From a bacterium (GTDB lineage Bacteria; UBP15; UBA6099), in the NCBI GenBank assembly GCA_029564595.1, contig JAKQPS010000054.1:1-47648 (forward strand): a stretch of DNA of 47,648 nucleotides, read 5' to 3'. The position numbers and the translations under genes were made by a program. Position 1 is the stretch's first letter. Each line of letters starts with the position of its first letter. Below are positions 2 to 19,049 of this stretch, one piece after another. The notes beneath the pieces were generated by a model. It was not told the origin of the DNA. It worked only from the letters and a program-made list of their open reading frames with translations, and searched no databases.

Positions 2-3000
2 GCAAGCTCGTGGCAAGGAGCTGACTTTACATTTGACGTTACGAACGCTGACGCGGGGTCGGGTGTCGGCGTGTGCGAATATATGGTCGAGAGCGATGGG
101 ATAGAGACGCTTGCATGGACGGTATACGGATGCGGAACGGACCCGACGATCACGGTGGGCGTAGGAGACGACTGCGATGTCGAGGGCGTGGACAAGTGCG
201 AAGTGTTCGTGCGGGTTACCGACGTTGCTGGCAACGGGCCTGCGAGCGCATCTAGGATATTCAGCATAGACTGGGCGAACCCGACGGTTACGATCAATGC
301 TCCTGCCGCCAGTTCGTGGCAGAGAGCTGACTTTACGTTTGACGTTACTAACGCGGACACCGGGTCAGGCGTGGATGTTTGCGAATATAGAGTCGTTAGC
401 GACAGCGTGGAAACGCTTGCGTGGACGGTGTACGCTTGCGCTACCGATCCGACGATAACTGTCGGCGTCGGAGACGACTGCGATGTCGAGGGCGCGGACG
501 AATGCGAAGTGTTCGTAAGAGTGACCGACGTTGCGGGCAACGGGCCGGTGAGCGCGTCCCGCGTGTTCGGCATAGACTGGACGCCGCCGGTAATATTGAC
601 CGGAGGTTTCGTCGAAGCGAGCGACTATCTATGGATATCGCCTTCAAACAACAGGCTTTATTTCGGAAACGGCATGGCCGCCGCGCAGGAGTTCCAAGTC
701 GAGGGAACCGCATCAGACGCTCTATCGGGAATGTATCGCGCGGCATTCTCTGCTGCTTTCTCGGACACTCCGGCGGACGACATGTCGGCGGAGGATTGGA
801 GCGGGACATACGACATCGACAGCTCGGACGCCGTCGCGGACAGCGTGACTGTTACGGTGTACGACCTAGCGGGCAACAGCGCGTCGGCCACGTATAACAC
901 CGTTCGCAATAATAGTTTGAGCGTGGAGTTCCTAGACCTGTCGCCGACCGGCCCCCCCGCGTTCACGCAGTTCAAGCTCTACTATCCCGACGGGGTCACT
1001 GAGATGACCTCGACCGGAGCGGATGGCCTGTCAGCCACCGTCACAGGCGGATATGATTTGTCTAAATTTATCCGGCTTTACGACAAGAACGGCGACGCCG
1101 AAGTGGTTCTTGACGACCCGGACGACGGAGTGGACGGCGATTTTGTGATTCAAACGCTGGCCTATCAGAACGGTTGCGGAACAGCTCCCGGAGACGCGTG
1201 GTGTCTGGAGCTATACACTATCGGTTGCGCGAGTTGCCATAACACGCCGCACTATATAGGCGTGTTTACCGCAGTCGGGGTCGAGATTAGGACGAACGCT
1301 TTTTATTCGAGTATTCCCGAAGACCATACCATAAACGGCGACCTCGGCGGGCCTCCTGTCGGGCCTCCTTTCACAATAGGCGATCCCGGAACCGTCGAAA
1401 TCGGATCCGGCCCCGACTACCTGTTGTTGACCGCGCTTGGAGAAAGAATTGTAACCTCGGACTTTACGATAAGCGCTTGGTGCGCCGGAGGCGCGTGTTC
1501 GCCCGTCTGCGCGCTAGGCAACTACTGCTCGGACACAGCTTCGATTGTGACGAAACCTGATTATGTGAAGATGGACACGGGCGGCGGTCCTGTGCTTGCG
1601 TCCAATATCGCCGACGACTCCACCCCGGCTGCAGGAGAATGGTCGTGGGACACAGTTAACAAGAGAGTGGTTTTATTTGACAATCCGGACGCGCCCGGAA
1701 CGACGATAACAGCTACTCCTAACGGTGGCAGCGAGACTGTTTGTGTGACGTTGATAGACGGATGCGGCATACTCGTGGATGAAGGCGGATGGAGCGACGA
1801 CATAGTCGAACTTACTCTTTCTCAAGCGCCGGATTCAGGCATGGATATCACCGAAAATTTGGCTAACGTCAATCAAGGGTTTGCGAATGTAACCGCTCCC
1901 GCCGTTGCGATCACGGAGCCGAACCAGACTGTCATAAAAGGCAATCTGGTCAAAGGAAAAGCATGTTTCTCAGTGACGGCCGAACAGTTGCCTTCTGATG
2001 ACCCGCAGAGTCCCATAATGATATCCTCCGCATATTTCGGAGCGACGCCGCTTTCGCACAAGATAGGGGAAAATTCGCCTCTTTATCTGTTGATTAGACC
2101 CCACACAGGAATTCCCGAATCCGACAGTTTCACAGGAATCGTTGATGTTGAAGATGTGTTTGTTCCCACGCCGGACACTACAGCTCAGGCGATTGTGTTG
2201 TCGCCGATGTGGAGTTACGACGGAGGAAAGATGCTTTTCACGTCCCGCCAGTCGAACCCCTGCGACGGAAACGCCGCCATCGGAGATTCGGAGTATTCCA
2301 ATTTCAATATTTACACGTTGACTCTTTCAGGCGGCATTTTGACGGATTGCGCTCGACTGACAAGCAACGTGAACGACGGATTCGCCACCTACGGCGTCGA
2401 TCCATCAAGCGATGTTACATGGATTGACGACGCGTCCAAGGTGATATTTGCCGCTCCCGATCACATAGGGACAGGAAGGAATAAACTGTTCTGGGTCGAC
2501 TCGACGGTTGGAGTCGGTCAGTCAGTTGGAGATCAATACGACTATCCGCCCGCCGGGCCTGTTATAGCCTCCGAAATGATCTTGGAGGATGTCTTGGTTG
2601 GCGACGGAATCATTAAGGTCAGCCTTAATCCCGGAGTGTTGATAAATATCGGCGACAAAGTTTCAATATATGAAATAGACTCATTCTCAGGAGAAATTGC
2701 CCAATCAGAGATCGCGGAAGTCACGAACATTCAACACGATTTCGGAAATTTCGTGACTGAGATACATGTGACTCCGAATACTGTGAACGCATACCTCGGC
2801 ATGATGAGCGCAGGGTCGAGTTTTGTCGAATATCCCGCGACGCTTAGGCAGATGGGGCAAAACATCGTTCCGTTGGACGACAACGCGGACTGGTGGGATC
2901 CGAATATCTCAGGGAACTACGCGGAATGCGCGGCGGCATATCGGAGCAAGCTGCTGGCTGTGCGCAAGCCGTCGGCGAACGCGGAGGATTACGTTTGCGG

Positions 3001-4699
3001 CCCGGCATGCGCGCAGGACGGCGCGGTCACAACGAACGCGAACATCGTGATGATCTCCGACACTAACGCAGACAGCGAATACACGGTTGGCGGCGGAGAC
3101 AACCTGATAAAAGTGACGAACTTCCACGGAGCCGGCGCATACTCTGTCAATCAGGTGTGGCCGATGAAGCCCAAGTGGTCTCCCGACTGCAAGATGATAT
3201 CGTTCCTAGCTTGGGACCGCTCGCCGGGCAACACCAACCCGACGCCGCCCTCGAAGACCAGCGTCTACATCATTAACCTCGACGCTGAGCATTCAGGATT
3301 CGAGAAGGCGACCCTGCCGATATCATCTCTGACGGACACCGGGGTGTACCCGATTTACAAGTACGACGATCACTCCATGCCTGCCAACTTCCCGAACTGG
3401 TCGGCGGATGGAAAACTCGTTTCGTACTCGCTTGACAGGAACAACGCGCTCGATCTGGAGCAAGCCAGTTCTGACATGGACAACCTAGTGAACCAGATGT
3501 TCGGTTCAAGCAACTACGACATATACCTTGAATACGTGCTGGATCAGCCTGAGAGCCAAGGGGCGATATACTCGCCGCAGTTGATGGGGAATGTGGACAA
3601 CAACGAGATGGCGCTGGCGCAGTGCCCGACGAATGGGGCGTCCACTTGCCCGAACAAGCCCAACTCGCCGTTCGTTCAGGTGTCCCAGATGTACTCAGGA
3701 GCCGGAGCGTATCTGAGGATGCTCACCCTCGGAGACGAAAGCGAGGTTAACGAAGGCGGAGGCATACTGTTCCAAGACGGAATAATCACGGCTGTGTTCC
3801 CGCCGAACGTGGTGGCAAGCAGCACAGTGTTCTACAACACCGACCCGACCGCCTATTGCGGAGGGGTATTGTTGCCGGATTGCCCGGTCGATCCCGATCC
3901 AACAAGAAACTTCATTGTTCAAGCCGGAGAAGCAAGAGAATACTTCCCGGACGGCACGAACTTCGAGTCGTACGCGCGCCTGATATTCAGGTACTGCGAC
4001 AGCGACGACATCGATCTTGACCTAACCTACAAGGGCGACGGCTTTATTGATGTCGGCACAGAAAACACTTACGCCGCCACATCGGCTGGAACCAAGTCTT
4101 TTACGTACGACCCGCTGTCAAACACATGCTCGATTGACGGAACTATAACATCCGGCGGAACGATAAGCGCGGACGCGTTGGCCGTTTACCACTGGGACAA
4201 AAACGCAATCCCGCCCCAGTGGGTTCGCATGGACGGAGCGGTGGACAAGGTCAACAAGACGATAACCGTGTTCTCGAAACACTTCTCTAGGTATGACACG
4301 CTGGGGTTCAGGACGGGGCTGCAGGCCCCCGTGCTCGTGCCGCTGCAGATAACTGATATCCGGACATATCCGAACCCGTACGTGCAATCGCGCAACTGGG
4401 CGGATGGAATCAAGTTCGCCGCCGGTGGGCTGAGCGGATACGGGCCGATCAACATAGAGATAAAAGTCATCGACATCCGAGGCTCGCTCGTGACGACGCT
4501 TGCCGGAGTGGTGAACGGCAACGCGCCCACCGACTTCAGCAACGTCTTTGAAAACAACGCATACACCCTGTTGCACTGGACAAACCCAGTGAACGCCGCA
4601 GGCCGCCCGCTGGCCTCCGGAGTCTATCTCTACTACATGACCGCCCGCACGACAAACTACGAAGTCACTCACAAAGGCAAGTTCTCAATCGTGAGATAG
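2..4699 (+). CDS. Large secreted repeat protein with FlgD-like C-terminal Ig domain (5' end outside window)
   Basis: The frame is open to the left window edge, so the gene is 5'-truncated; the Met codon at 71 lies inside a repeat and is not the start. Two copies of a 102-residue (306 bp) unit begin at codons 5 and 311, each with paired Cys and a DVAGNGP strand, like bacterial Ig/HYR modules. A CASCH motif (1226-1240) could bind c-type heme. PD40/TolB-like blades are visible near 2200 (WSYDGG), 3170 (WSPD) and 3400 (WSADG). The last ~110 residues (YPNPY, IDIRG, LASGVYLYY) match the FlgD-like Ig fold often found at the C terminus of exported proteins and related to sorting domains. I infer an extracellular or surface-bound protein; substrate and partner are unknown. 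The Cys-rich, Asp/Gly-rich composition supports an exported location. Confidence 0.8.
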   Translation, partial: ASSWQGADFTFDVTNADAGSGVGVCEYMVESDGIETLAWTVYGCGTDPTITVGVGDDCDVEGVDKCEVFVRVTDVAGNGPASASRIFSIDWANPTVTINAPAASSWQRADFTFDVTNADTGSGVDVCEYRVVSDSVETLAWTVYACATDPTITVGVGDDCDVEGADECEVFVRVTDVAGNGPVSASRVFGIDWTPPVILTGGFVEASDYLWISPSNNRLYFGNGMAAAQEFQVEGTASDALSGMYRAAFSAAFSDTPADDMSAEDWSGTYDIDSSDAVADSVTVTVYDLAGNSASATYNTVRNNSLSVEFLDLSPTGPPAFTQFKLYYPDGVTEMTSTGADGLSATVTGGYDLSKFIRLYDKNGDAEVVLDDPDDGVDGDFVIQTLAYQNGCGTAPGDAWCLELYTIGCASCHNTPHYIGVFTAVGVEIRTNAFYSSIPEDHTINGDLGGPPVGPPFTIGDPGTVEIGSGPDYLLLTALGERIVTSDFTISAWCAGGACSPVCALGNYCSDTASIVTKPDYVKMDTGGGPVLASNIADDSTPAAGEWSWDTVNKRVVLFDNPDAPGTTITATPNGGSETVCVTLIDGCGILVDEGGWSDDIVELTLSQAPDSGMDITENLANVNQGFANVTAPAVAITEPNQTVIKGNLVKGKACFSVTAEQLPSDDPQSPIMISSAYFGATPLSHKIGENSPLYLLIRPHTGIPESDSFTGIVDVEDVFVPTPDTTAQAIVLSPMWSYDGGKMLFTSRQSNPCDGNAAIGDSEYSNFNIYTLTLSGGILTDCARLTSNVNDGFATYGVDPSSDVTWIDDASKVIFAAPDHIGTGRNKLFWVDSTVGVGQSVGDQYDYPPAGPVIASEMILEDVLVGDGIIKVSLNPGVLINIGDKVSIYEIDSFSGEIAQSEIAEVTNIQHDFGNFVTEIHVTPNTVNAYLGMMSAGSSFVEYPATLRQMGQNIVPLDDNADWWDPNISGNYAECAAAYRSKLLAVRKPSANAEDYVCGPACAQDGAVTTNANIVMISDTNADSEYTVGGGDNLIKVTNFHGAGAYSVNQVWPMKPKWSPDCKMISFLAWDRSPGNTNPTPPSKTSVYIINLDAEHSGFEKATLPISSLTDTGVYPIYKYDDHSMPANFPNWSADGKLVSYSLDRNNALDLEQASSDMDNLVNQMFGSSNYDIYLEYVLDQPESQGAIYSPQLMGNVDNNEMALAQCPTNGASTCPNKPNSPFVQVSQMYSGAGAYLRMLTLGDESEVNEGGGILFQDGIITAVFPPNVVASSTVFYNTDPTAYCGGVLLPDCPVDPDPTRNFIVQAGEAREYFPDGTNFESYARLIFRYCDSDDIDLDLTYKGDGFIDVGTENTYAATSAGTKSFTYDPLSNTCSIDGTITSGGTISADALAVYHWDKNAIPPQWVRMDGAVDKVNKTITVFSKHFSRYDTLGFRTGLQAPVLVPLQITDIRTYPNPYVQSRNWADGIKFAAGGLSGYGPINIEIKVIDIRGSLVTTLAGVVNGNAPTDFSNVFENNAYTLLHWTNPVNAAGRPLASGVYLYYMTARTTNYEVTHKGKFSIVR

Positions 4700-7809: not shown

Positions 7810-8250
7810 ATGAGATCAAAAGGGTTCACGGTAATTGAAACACTGCTGATAGTAGTTTTGATCAGCATCTTAGCGGCGATATTGATTCCGAGGTTTACGA
7901 TAGGTTCCAAACAGGCAAAGATTCAATCCTGCGAAATGAACAGATCGATAATAAACACAATGACTGAAACATTTTATTTCATGGAAGGCACATGGCCGAA
8001 TCTTGATCTCGATGTGTTCAGACATGCCGCTGCGGATGGCGCATACGATACCGTTTGGGTGGATTCATCAAACAACGAATTCGACCCGGCGGTGCCAGCG
8101 GAGAAAGCGGCGTTATCGAACTTGGCCGGTAAGTATTTTCCGGATGGAATACCGACATGCCCGGTGGATGAGACATCATATGTTCTTGCTCCTTCGCCAA
8201 TATTCAGAGTATCGGGGCATAGAGAAGGTTCAGACACGCACGAGCTATAA
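7810..8250 (+). CDS. Type IV pilin / pseudopilin family protein 1
   Basis: A 146-residue prepilin. The class III signal is KG|FTVIE with cleavage expected after Gly5 and the conserved Glu at mature position 5, followed by a hydrophobic helix (residues 6-28) ending in IPRF. The C-terminal globular part has Cys41 and Cys117 as a probable disulfide pair, a TWPNLDLDVF segment, a YFPDGIPTCP loop and a terminal SGHREG motif shared with the next three proteins. Short length and the repeated calcium-loop-like C terminus recall type II secretion major pseudopilins, but no secretion ATPase, platform or peptidase gene is nearby. A strong ribosome site (AGAGGTG) precedes the ATG. It is first of four tandem paralogues. 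Confidence 0.85.
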   Translation: MRSKGFTVIETLLIVVLISILAAILIPRFTIGSKQAKIQSCEMNRSIINTMTETFYFMEGTWPNLDLDVFRHAAADGAYDTVWVDSSNNEFDPAVPAEKAALSNLAGKYFPDGIPTCPVDETSYVLAPSPIFRVSGHREGSDTHEL

Positions 8251-8294
8251 AATTGTCATAATATTATGTGTGGTTTATTGGGAGAATTACCGGC

Positions 8295-8768
8295 ATGAGA
8301 TTAAGCGGCTATCGGGGATTCACAATATTGGAAGTATTGATAGTCGTTGTTCTGATAAGCATTCTTGCGGCGATAGTTATACCTAGATTCATGGTTTCGA
8401 CGAAGCAGGCGAAAGTGCAGGCGTGCGAGATGCAACGGGCCATAATTAACAAACAGATAGAAAATTTTTATTTTATGGAAGCCACATGGCCGAATCTGGA
8501 TCTTGATGTGTTCAGGCATGCCGCTGAGAGCGGATGGAGTTCGACATCGGAATGGGTGGATTCGTCTGGAGTGAAATATCATTCGAACGACTCTGCTGAC
8601 AGGTTGAAACTGAGAAATCTAGCGTCGAGGTATTTTCCAGATGGAATACCGACTTGCCCGATAGATGAGACATCATATGTCATGATGCCTTCGCCGTGGT
8701 ATCGGGTATCGGGGCACAGAGAAGGTGAAGGAACGCACATTTGGGCGGAATATGATAGAAAGCCATAA
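8295..8768 (+). CDS. Type IV pilin / pseudopilin family protein 2
   Basis: A 157-residue paralogue of the preceding pilin. The prepilin site is RG|FTILE (cleavage after Gly8), followed by the LIVVVLISILAAIVIPRF helix. Two Cys, TWPNLDLDVFRHAAES, YFPDGIPTCPIDETSY and SGHREGEGTH are conserved; the C terminus carries about six extra residues. A longer reading from an upstream ATG at 8268 would add nine residues before the signal, but GGGAGA at 8279-8285 fits the 8295 ATG better. The region after the helix is more variable than the ends, as expected for pilins assembled into one filament with different exposed faces. Confidence 0.83.
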   Translation: MRLSGYRGFTILEVLIVVVLISILAAIVIPRFMVSTKQAKVQACEMQRAIINKQIENFYFMEATWPNLDLDVFRHAAESGWSSTSEWVDSSGVKYHSNDSADRLKLRNLASRYFPDGIPTCPIDETSYVMMPSPWYRVSGHREGEGTHIWAEYDRKP

Positions 8769-8813: not shown

Positions 8814-9263
8814 ATGAAAAACAGAGGATTTACAATACTTGAGGTCATGCTGGTTGTCATATTGATCAGCATACTCGCCGCGATCGTGATACCGAGGTTC
8901 GTGGTGTCCACGAAGCACGCGAAGGTTCAATCCTGCGAAATGAACCGCGCCATTATTAACAAAGCGGTGGAATCGTTCTATTTCGTGGAAGCAACGTGGC
9001 CGGACTTGGACCTGAATATTCTTAAACAGTCATCGCTTAACGCCGATATGGCGGCAAGCGGCAATTACGATCCGGACTGGTACGACGCTCGCGGCGACTA
9101 TGCGACAACCTATACGCAGAACGAACTGTATCGGCTGTCGTCGAGATACTTCCCGGATGGGATTCCAACATGTCCTTTGGATGAATCGTCGTATGTGCTG
9201 TTCCCGTCGCCTATATTCAGAGTTTCCGGCCACAGGGAAGGCGCAGGAACGCACGTATATTAA
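8814..9263 (+). CDS. Type IV pilin / pseudopilin family protein 3
   Basis: A 149-residue prepilin with NRG|FTILE (cleavage after Gly5) and an AAGGAAATG-type ribosome site. It is closest to pilin 4: both share the KQSSLN...ASGNYDPDWYD segment that pilins 1 and 2 lack, so the array contains two sub-pairs. Conserved Cys in QSCEMNRAIIN and IPTCPLDE. As for its neighbours, a minor or major filament subunit is inferred from family alone. Confidence 0.83.
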   Translation: MKNRGFTILEVMLVVILISILAAIVIPRFVVSTKHAKVQSCEMNRAIINKAVESFYFVEATWPDLDLNILKQSSLNADMAASGNYDPDWYDARGDYATTYTQNELYRLSSRYFPDGIPTCPLDESSYVLFPSPIFRVSGHREGAGTHVY

Positions 9264-9312: not shown

Positions 9313-9768
9313 ATGAAAAGCAAGAGCGCGGGGTTCACGATTCTTGAGGTGATGTTGGTCGTCATTTTGATCAGCATACTTGCGGCGATAGTGATTCCCA
9401 GATTTGTGGTGTCGGCGAGACAAGCGAAGGTTCAGTCCTGCGAAATGAACCGCGCCATCATCAACAAACAGATAGAAGCATTCTATTTTGTTGAAGCGAC
9501 GTGGCCGGACACGGACCTGAATATCTTCAAGCAGTCGTCGCTAAATCCTGACATGGTTGCAAGCGGCAATTATGATCCGGACTGGTATGATCAGGGGAAC
9601 AACGCCGCTACGACATACACTGCAGCCGAGTTGTACACATTGTCGGCGCGTTACTTCCCGGACGGCATACCCACATGTCCTGTGGACGAATCATCGTACA
9701 CGATGGGGCCGTCTCCGTTGTACAGAATCACCGGACATAGGGAAGGCGCAGGAACGCACGTATTTTAA
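9313..9768 (+). CDS. Type IV pilin / pseudopilin family protein 4
   Basis: A 151-residue prepilin with SAG|FTILE (cleavage after Gly7), preceded by AAGGAGTG about 8 bases before the ATG. Nearly identical to pilin 3 through the first 90 residues, which suggests recent duplication or gene conversion. Ends with TGHREGAGTHVF. It is the last gene before the strong terminator at 9843-9875, so pilins 1-4 probably form one transcript. Confidence 0.83.
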   Translation: MKSKSAGFTILEVMLVVILISILAAIVIPRFVVSARQAKVQSCEMNRAIINKQIEAFYFVEATWPDTDLNIFKQSSLNPDMVASGNYDPDWYDQGNNAATTYTAAELYTLSARYFPDGIPTCPVDESSYTMGPSPLYRITGHREGAGTHVF

Positions 9769-9784
9769 GTCGGCGTCTGACGTA

Positions 9785-9806
9785 TTATGCCGGACGCCCG
9801 GCATAA
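9785..9806 (+). other. Perfect 9-bp hairpin in pilin 3' region
   Basis: TTATGCCGG and CCGGCATAA pair across a 4-base ACGC loop. There is no T-run behind it. It lies 17 bases after the fourth pilin stop and 37 bases before the intrinsic terminator, and may stabilise the 3' end of the transcript. Confidence 0.5.
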
Positions 9807-9842
9807 ACGATGGAGCAACAACTTAATCGCTGAACTTCAGAG

Positions 9843-9875
9843 AAGCCGCGTCGCTTGTAAGCGCGTGGCTTTTTT
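9843..9875 (+). terminator. Rho-independent terminator after the four-pilin array
   Basis: AAGCCGCG(T)CGCTT pairs with AAGCGCGTGGCTT (about 12 bp with one bulged T and a G-T pair, tetraloop) and is followed directly by a run of six T. It separates pilins 1-4 from the fifth pilin. Confidence 0.8.
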
Positions 9876-9921
9876 GATAAAATGGCAATAGCGCGGCGTT
9901 TGCAAAACAAAGGAATAATTG

Positions 9922-10278
9922 ATGGCAGTATCGCATCCAAGACAGAGGGGAGTCTCGATAGGCGAGGTGGTCCTCGTCGTGCTGTTGGTTTCAATAATCG
10001 CCGCGATAGTGATACCTAGGTTTAAGAACATTACGATGGACGCGAAATATGAGGCATGTAGAACGAATGTCGCGAACATTAACGCTCTCGTTCAATTGTA
10101 CTATATCAAAGAGGGAACATGGCCTCAGCCTGATTTGAGCGACATAGTGATTGACGGGGAGTATTTTCCCGAACTGCAAATGCCTGAATGCCCTGTGTCG
10201 CCCGGAGCGGCGTATGAAATATGGCCTGTCGGCCATAGAGTAACAGGGCATGTGAAAGGGAATTCTGTTCATCCTTGA
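9922..10278 (+). CDS. Divergent type IV pilin-like protein 5
   Basis: A 118-residue prepilin with an altered signal, RQRG|VSIGE: Gly at -1 and Glu at +5 are kept but Phe at +1 is Val. The helix VVLVVLLVSIIAAIVIPRF is typical. The globular part is short, with TWPQPDLSD, a YFPELQMPECPV loop with the second Cys, and GHRVTGHVKG at the end in place of SGHREG. An AAGGA ribosome site fits the ATG at 9922 (a TTG stands directly before it). It lies beyond the terminator, so it probably has its own promoter or is transcribed with the next gene. Likely a minor pilin. Confidence 0.78.
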   Translation: MAVSHPRQRGVSIGEVVLVVLLVSIIAAIVIPRFKNITMDAKYEACRTNVANINALVQLYYIKEGTWPQPDLSDIVIDGEYFPELQMPECPVSPGAAYEIWPVGHRVTGHVKGNSVHP

Positions 10279-10317
10279 TGTTGAGGATGATAAGGCGGCT
10301 GGCGGGAAGGCCTGATT

Positions 10318-10788
10318 TTGTTGCCTATAGAATCTAACAGATGGTGGATGTTCTGGGGGATCGTTGTCGCGGTCTTTGCTCTTATTATGTTCAATCTTAC
10401 CGGGATGCCGTTCTCCGTGGCGGGAAGCTCTGAAAGCGATATAGCAAGAGAAGCCATAATGAATGATAGTTCGCTTACGGATCAAGAGCGTCAAGCCATG
10501 CTGGACCCGCAGGCGGCAATAGAATACACGAAGACAACAGTTTGCAGGCAGCACGCCAATTTGATAAACATGATGGTTGAAATATGGTATGTGAATCATG
10601 GCGGAGTGTGGCCGAACCCCGACCTGAGCGATATTGGTAGAGACAAGGATTATTTCCCAAACGGAGTGCCGATATGTCCGTATAACGGAATGCCGTACGC
10701 TCTTGACCCCACAACCCACAGAGTGGAATTGAACTTCTACGAAGTGGATGATGGCAAGATTGAAGAAACGATAGAATCAATGAGATAG
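10318..10788 (+). CDS. Pilin-like globular domain on an unprocessed transmembrane anchor
   Basis: About 156 residues. The C-terminal half (TVCRQHANLINMMVEIWYVNHGGVWPNPDLSDIG, then YFPNGVPICPYNGMPY) clearly matches the globular part of the upstream pilin-like protein 5, with both Cys kept. The N terminus does not: there is no G|FxxxE prepilin site, only a hydrophobic span WWMFWGIVVAVFALIMF (residues ~9-25) followed by a 40-residue acidic linker. It should therefore stay anchored in the inner membrane. No ATG is available after the upstream in-frame stop; start is TTG at 10318 or 10321 with GGGAAGG upstream. It may be an assembly or docking partner of the filament. Confidence 0.65.
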   Translation: MLPIESNRWWMFWGIVVAVFALIMFNLTGMPFSVAGSSESDIAREAIMNDSSLTDQERQAMLDPQAAIEYTKTTVCRQHANLINMMVEIWYVNHGGVWPNPDLSDIGRDKDYFPNGVPICPYNGMPYALDPTTHRVELNFYEVDDGKIEETIESMR

Positions 10789-18374: not shown

Positions 18375-18403
18375 AATAAGTAGACGGAAGGAGGTTGAGC
18401 GAC

Positions 18404-18730
18404 ATGGCGAACAGCAGCATAGTAAGGATTAACAATGAAACCAAAAGGACGCTTGAAGAACTATCTAGAAAATCGGGCGAGCCGATGCTCAACGTAATCG
18501 ACAGAGCGATAGAAGAATACAGGCGGCGCGTATTTCTTGAGGAAACAAACGCCGCGTACGCGAAACTGAAAAATGACGGAAAGGCGTCCGGAGAATATGA
18601 TCGGGAGACAGCCGAATGGGATTCCACCCTGATGGATGGCCTCGAAGATTTGGAATCATGGGAAGAAGGCGGGAAGCAGGGAGCAGGAAAGAAAGGAAGA
18701 AAACCCAATGATAAATCCCGCGCGAGGTGA
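18404..18730 (+). CDS. Antitoxin-like protein (ribbon-helix-helix type), partner of MazF
   Basis: A 108-residue protein. The N terminus SSIVRINNETKRTLEELSRKSGEPMLNVIDRAIEEYRR has the strand-helix-helix pattern of CopG/Arc-like antitoxins; the C-terminal half is acidic then strongly basic and would be the disordered toxin-binding and tail part. A TTG at 18395 is also in frame, but AGGAGG (18389-18394) fits the ATG at 18404. The next gene begins inside its last codons (23-base overlap), typical of toxin-antitoxin coupling. Identity as antitoxin rests on position and fold pattern. Confidence 0.75.
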   Translation: MANSSIVRINNETKRTLEELSRKSGEPMLNVIDRAIEEYRRRVFLEETNAAYAKLKNDGKASGEYDRETAEWDSTLMDGLEDLESWEEGGKQGAGKKGRKPNDKSRAR

Positions 18731-19049
18731 AATATGGCTGGCGGATCTTAACCCCGTAAGGGGACATGAGCAAGGCGGACAGCGTCCTGTAATAGTAATT
18801 TCCGCCGATATTTACAATTCCGGCCCGGCGGACCTTGTAGTTGTGTTGCCGCTAACAAGAACATATCGCGGCATACCTCTGCACGTTCAGATAAAGCCGC
18901 CTGATGGCGGCGTTAAAAGCCCTAGCGCCATACTCTGCGATGCCGTGAGGTCAATATCAAAAGACAGGCTTGTGAAAAAATCAGGCGCGGCGTCTTCCAC
19001 AGTAATTAAAGAAATCGAAGATAGAATGAGAATACTTCTTGAACTATAG
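18708..19049 (+). CDS. MazF/PemK family endoribonuclease toxin
   Basis: A 113-residue protein with the MazF signature: RGEIWLADLNPVRGHEQGGQRPVIVIS at the N terminus, VVVLPLTRT in the core and LCDAVRSISKDRLVKK near residue 80, where the catalytic Arg and the conserved Ser/Thr of the family map. It cuts mRNA at short sequences to stop growth until antitoxin returns. The ATG at 18708 has GAAAGGAAG upstream; a longer in-frame reading would overlap the antitoxin fully and is unlikely. Confidence 0.88.
   Translation: MINPARGEIWLADLNPVRGHEQGGQRPVIVISADIYNSGPADLVVVLPLTRTYRGIPLHVQIKPPDGGVKSPSAILCDAVRSISKDRLVKKSGAASSTVIKEIEDRMRILLEL

Follow-up and report, generated by a model that had tools for sequence, protein, structure and literature searches.

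The gene at positions 10318 to 10788 of the window, by which we mean the whole 47,648-nt stretch of DNA analysed here, encodes a pilin head carried on a membrane-anchor helix and a variable acidic linker. Comparison with its neighbours and orthologues suggests that the protein, hereafter termed the mimic, may be a non-polymerising, inner-membrane pilin paralogue that is accessory to type IV filament assembly, a reading to which we give somewhat less than even chances. The gene adjoins a cluster of five pilin genes, and the features delineated there are as follows:

7810 to 8250, plus strand: pilin 1, site G|FTVIE
8268 to 8768, plus strand: pilin 2, site G|FTILE
8814 to 9263, plus strand: pilin 3, site G|FTILE
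9313 to 9768, plus strand: pilin 4, site G|FTILE
9769 to 9885, plus strand: structured intergenic element of about 117 nt that separates pilin 4 from pilin 5, recognised by conservation and folding
9919 to 10278, plus strand: pilin 5, a probable minor pilin and first gene of a putative two-gene unit, the pair being conserved in a second family (genome G005)
10303 to 10310, plus strand: ribosome-binding site CGGGAAGG, 7 nt before the TTG of the mimic
10318 to 10788, plus strand: the mimic, a tethered pilin-head protein of 156 aa with a TTG start, supported by its open reading frame, its orthologues (L009, L010 and L011) and dN/dS

The open reading frame that a preliminary description had marked at 10318-10788 proved to be a real gene. 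The stretch CGGGAAGGCCTGATTTTG at its start shows no differences across three genomes, while the preceding 20 nt diverge, and where the window gene has its second TTG codon both near orthologues have CTG, which makes 10318 the likely start. The gap of 39 nt that separates the gene from the end of pilin 5 contains stop codons in the mimic frame; on these grounds, and on the agreement of the orthologues, a frameshift or a wrongly assigned start was rejected. The mimic is under strong purifying selection within the genus (pairwise dN/dS among three species, 0.025-0.062; pilin 5, 0.09-0.12), and a pseudogene was rejected on these values. The protein gave no match in Pfam and nothing credible in a sequence search of the PDB, and its weak NifM match in NCBIfam (E = 7e-4; 19.5 bits against a cut-off of 168.2) was taken as chance. 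The TTG start and the lack of a Pfam match are what could be said for a decaying pilin duplicate, or a mis-called gene without function; with dN/dS at 0.02-0.06, a conserved ribosome-binding site, an architecture kept in another family and orthologues that contradict it, we regard this explanation as very improbable.

Four parts can be distinguished along the protein:

10342 to 10401, plus strand: membrane-anchor helix, residues ~9-28, from hydropathy, 40% identity between families (residues 1-31) and an AlphaFold2 helix at residues 7-28 (modest confidence)
10411 to 10515, plus strand: acidic variable linker, residues 32-66, with 9% identity between families and mostly low pLDDT
10516 to 10728, plus strand: pilin head, residues 67-137, with 58% identity between families, a match to pilin 5 (E 1e-10) and a VIA Z of 6.4 to PilJ
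10729 to 10785, plus strand: acidic, divergent C-terminal tail, from the alignment and low pLDDT, standing where pilins end in GHREGxGTH

Type IV pilins carry a class III signal peptide, with G at -1 and, as a rule, E at +5, immediately ahead of a hydrophobic stretch; the prepilin-peptidase site is accompanied by the N-terminal half of alpha1, which forms the core of the type IV pilus filament. Two of these defining features are lacking in the mimic. A G|xxxxE site is absent from the window protein and from every complete orthologue, the sole G....[ED] of the window protein being G36-SSES-D, which no hydrophobic stretch follows and which the distant orthologue does not have. In place of a continuous helix running from alpha1-N to alpha1-C, a variable acidic linker of about 35 residues intervenes (net charge over residues 36-70, -6 in the window protein and -5 in the distant orthologue). 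An N terminus made of a transmembrane helix and an acidic linker without a prepilin site, as the preliminary description had it, is thus borne out. The third feature, a globular head with alpha1-C, a Cys-bracketed loop and beta strands, is present by sequence, with a limited fold match. These same differences bear on the possibility that the mimic enters the filament through its transmembrane helix as a tip or base subunit. Its helix and head do follow one another in prepilin order, with likely the same topology, and its gene adjoins that of a minor pilin; but with no G|xxxxE site, no equivalent of E5 in the helix and a linker that interrupts the continuous alpha1 helix packing the filament core, incorporation seems to us decidedly improbable.

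The anchor reaches a best 19-residue hydropathy mean of 2.06 (residues ~9-28), and its cytoplasmic end bears a conserved N-R-x-W-M-x-W; neither an acidic residue nor any other partner-specific mark was seen in it. Between families it retains 12 of 30 residues, a count reached by none of 100,000 shuffles (mean 2.7). With conservation in the anchor and not in the linker, the former is probably a functional, working part of the protein, which would be unexpected for a discarded signal peptide. This comparison weighs on a further explanation, in which the hydrophobic stretch would serve as a cleavable signal peptide and the head as a soluble periplasmic pilin binder, a secreted decoy or chaperone. 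In the window protein S33-V34-A35|G fits the -3/-1 rule for a signal peptidase I cut after residue 35, but the G005 orthologue does not preserve this motif (PYISLDGG), the hydrophobic core stops ~8-10 residues short of the putative cut, and 40% identity in the anchor against 9% in the linker is unlike a discarded signal, so that we consider such a secreted form quite unlikely. Of the earlier proposal of a permanently membrane-bound pilin mimic beside a pilin cluster, the membrane-bound mimic and its setting are supported, whereas its permanence is qualified by the possible cut after residue 35; a permanent membrane location is nevertheless likely from the sequence.

The relationship of the head to pilins carries the argument. 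Mimic residues ~72-137 match pilin 5 (window 10045-10245) with 45% identity over 66 aa (E = 1.2e-10), and in an alignment of 25 sequences C76, C120, W98-P99, Y112-F113 and P118-x-C120-P121 (mimic numbering) are invariant. On pilin 5 the homology starts at K43 (roughly position 32 in the mature protein), so that the mimic is missing the peptidase site together with the N-terminal half of alpha1. What is left consists of the alpha1-C helix (residues 64-93 in the AlphaFold2 model) and the Cys-bracketed WP...DLSDI...YFP.G.P.CP loop region. The C-terminal half had been described as matching pilin 5; both Cys and both loops are indeed shared, but the YFPNGVPICP loop is nearer to that of pilins 1-4 (YFPDGIPTCP) than to that of pilin 5 (YFPELQMPECP). 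Compared with type IV minor pilins and T2SS pseudopilins of the GspG/ComGC kind, which pilins 1-5 resemble along their N-terminal ~60 residues, the mimic has the head, Cys pair and loop motif common to pilins 1-5, but is without the class III signal peptide and alpha1-N core that those proteins possess. In the head tree, which is rough as it rests on 77 model positions, all mimics group together with 100% bootstrap support, and a split at 98% separates them from pilin 5 and the remaining pilins. Their separate clade indicates that the paralogue predates the two families. On this tree the mimic is an old pilin paralogue and not a recent loss, so that the earlier wording of a protein that "has lost" its prepilin site suits the missing alpha1-N, but not a recent event.

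Some variation was also seen among the pilins themselves. Pilins 1-4 carry an insertion of ~30-40 residues before YFPDGIPTCP, which the pilins of G004 and G005 do not have, and nearly all of these pilins (pilins 1-4 and those of G004 and G005) end in GHREGxxTH, which might bind metal. The pilin 5 site is conserved without Phe (G|VSIGE, with Val at +1, and G|IALGE in G005), and pilins 1-4 have G|FTxxE.

An AlphaFold2 model of the mimic, built with 23 sequences, shows a helix at 7-28, a low-confidence linker, a helix at 64-93 and a short loop/strand head; its confidence is modest (mean pLDDT 63, pTM 0.46), with about 73-88 in the head over residues 71-140. The structural comparison with pilins that the preliminary description had proposed gave a partial answer: a Foldseek search of the model against the PDB returned no significant match, its top row being the Clostridioides pilin PilJ (E = 6), whereas in the VIA comparison two of the six chains compared reached Z >= 2, namely PilJ, with Z 6.4 (72 residues, 2.5 A), and a subunit of the meningococcal pilus, with Z 3.0. 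The modelled fold agrees with a pilin head and would be weak by itself, the claim being carried by the sequence evidence. A control model of pilin 5 was too poor for use (pLDDT 55) and had no Foldseek match.

Three full-length orthologues were found, in G002 (99%), G003 (97%) and G005 (about 40-43%), the last belonging to a different family of the same order as the window genome and keeping the mimic layout. A fourth (G001, L030) is ended by a contig edge; its start is alike, with 92% identity over 26 residues. The full-length family is thus known from five genomes only, one of them truncated. Every orthologue sits directly after an orthologue of pilin 5, at 22 nt in G005. Orthologues with an intact site, which had been named as the observation that would overturn the proposal, were not encountered, the three complete proteins and the truncated one all being without it. 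The pair and the other pilins of G005 lie on different contigs, and the other pilins adjoin PilC. Four other pilins were found in G004 (80% complete), in which a full-length mimic and pilin 5 were not detected, and G006 (78% complete) yielded neither head matches nor a mimic; incompleteness may account for both gaps.

A profile of the head gave matches in only 8 of the 337 genomes searched (E <= 1e-4). Beyond the order these comprised G257, with an ordinary minimal pilin (GFTLIE), and G226 (GFSLLE); the phylum of G257 was searched and gave nothing further. A match in G053 was rejected, as it falls in a 454-aa open reading frame that looks like an extracellular solute-binding protein and is unrelated. 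The minimal pilin of G257, from an unrelated phylum (L058, 1375-1665), has the WPAADLSDIGADGDYFPEGVPLCPVCG loop too, and the loop motif is therefore wider than the order.

The window genome contains three prepilin-peptidase matches, PilM, several T2SS/T4P ATPases and about a dozen prepilins, and with these genes present the cleavable pilins are presumably processed in this bacterium. Elsewhere in the window, 71-4699 is an open reading frame of 1542 aa in which Ig-like segments recur and whose C-terminal domain resembles, by eye, surface-sorting or FlgD-like ends, and 18395-19049 holds two small overlapping frames that read, again by eye, as a MazEF-type toxin-antitoxin pair.

Upstream of pilin 5, the element at 9769-9885 is 98-99% identical across four congeneric genomes, as compared with 49-91% for the short spacers between the other pilins and 84-94% for the pilin genes in the same genomes. 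It is predicted to fold into two strong hairpins (MFE -51.2 kcal/mol, z -5.5) and ends at its 3' side in an intrinsic terminator (long hairpin and U run, z -5.1), together with a promoter-like TGATAAAAT. The element is single copy, has no match in Rfam and was not found outside the genus; it is a promising candidate for a novel small RNA or for a regulatory 3' end of the pilin transcript. Given a strong terminator before pilin 5, pilin 5 and the mimic probably form a unit of their own or are reached by limited read-through, and co-expression of the mimic with this minor pilin is the best reading of the arrangement.

Two known systems offer models for such a protein, and the mimic belongs to neither. 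The first comprises TfpX/TfpY/TfpZ of Pseudomonas and FimB of Dichelobacter, which it resembles as a small, non-prepilin inner-membrane protein with its gene directly beside a pilin gene (39 nt in the window, 22 nt in G005) and a terminator in the locus. TfpY, whose gene adjoins pilA, was not detected in the fibre and has been proposed as an assembly primer, and in Pseudomonas the stoichiometry of the accessory protein is set by a terminator between pilA and tfpY (PMC11841053). The terminator near pilin 5 and the mimic is a suggestive parallel only, as it stands before pilin 5, whereas that of P. aeruginosa lies between pilA and tfpY. TfpY-like proteins also differ in having ~235 aa, three N-terminal transmembrane helices and a different, mixed alpha/beta periplasmic domain, as against one such helix and a pilin head in the mimic. 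By analogy, TfpY/FimB would be its closest working model, as an analogue and not a homologue.

The closest evolutionary model, likewise by analogy, would be ArlF/ArlG, duplicated filament subunits with an N-terminal transmembrane helix and a soluble filament-type head, which are essential accessory proteins outside the filament proper (PMC8667602). They differ in being archaeal, with an archaellin beta-sandwich head, an archaellum operon and a stator/S-layer context, whereas the mimic has a pilin-type head in a bacterial genome with PilM-type T4P genes; ArlG is N-terminally cleaved by a protease, and a sequence relation was not detected. An envelope anchor or collar of this type, the head docking on the filament base or stacking with like heads to join the filament with the inner membrane or a different layer of the envelope, would share the evolutionary route of ArlF/ArlG (subunit duplicated, N-terminal transmembrane helix kept, core helix lost or shortened; PMC8667602) and would suit the long tether and the conserved head surface DLSDIGRDKDYFP. 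The head is however a small pilin head and not a beta-sandwich, an S-layer- or peptidoglycan-binding part is not evident, and the C-terminal tail is short and divergent between families, and we rate this role as unlikely. The open-licence literature on uncleaved pilin-domain proteins yielded little of use.

As an accessory, non-polymerising paralogue, the mimic would remain in the inner membrane, N-in/C-out. Close to the assembly platform its tethered head would bind the heads of either pilin 5 or the major pilins. There it could recruit or hold the first subunits, by priming or chaperoning, or restrain them, and, lacking an alpha1-N that could enter the filament core, it would be left behind by the growing filament. 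The earlier suggestions of an assembly nucleator, a length control or a decoy are guesses between which sequence does not discriminate; priming or chaperoning has the best precedent. It is also conceivable, though doubtful, that this lineage independently paralleled ArlF/ArlG: a filament subunit would have been duplicated and stripped of its polymerising helix, its head staying permanently tethered to the membrane and serving as a dedicated docking subunit, not incorporated itself, that determines where or how filaments begin or are anchored.

These observations concern a narrow, uncultured lineage, which limits their general reach. Within it, a non-polymerising pilin head maintained under strong selection next to a minor pilin would parallel, in bacteria, the stator paralogues of archaella and would offer a ready-made tool for separating head-head recognition from core-helix polymerisation, which bears on how type IV filaments start and on how abundant pilins stay ready in the membrane.
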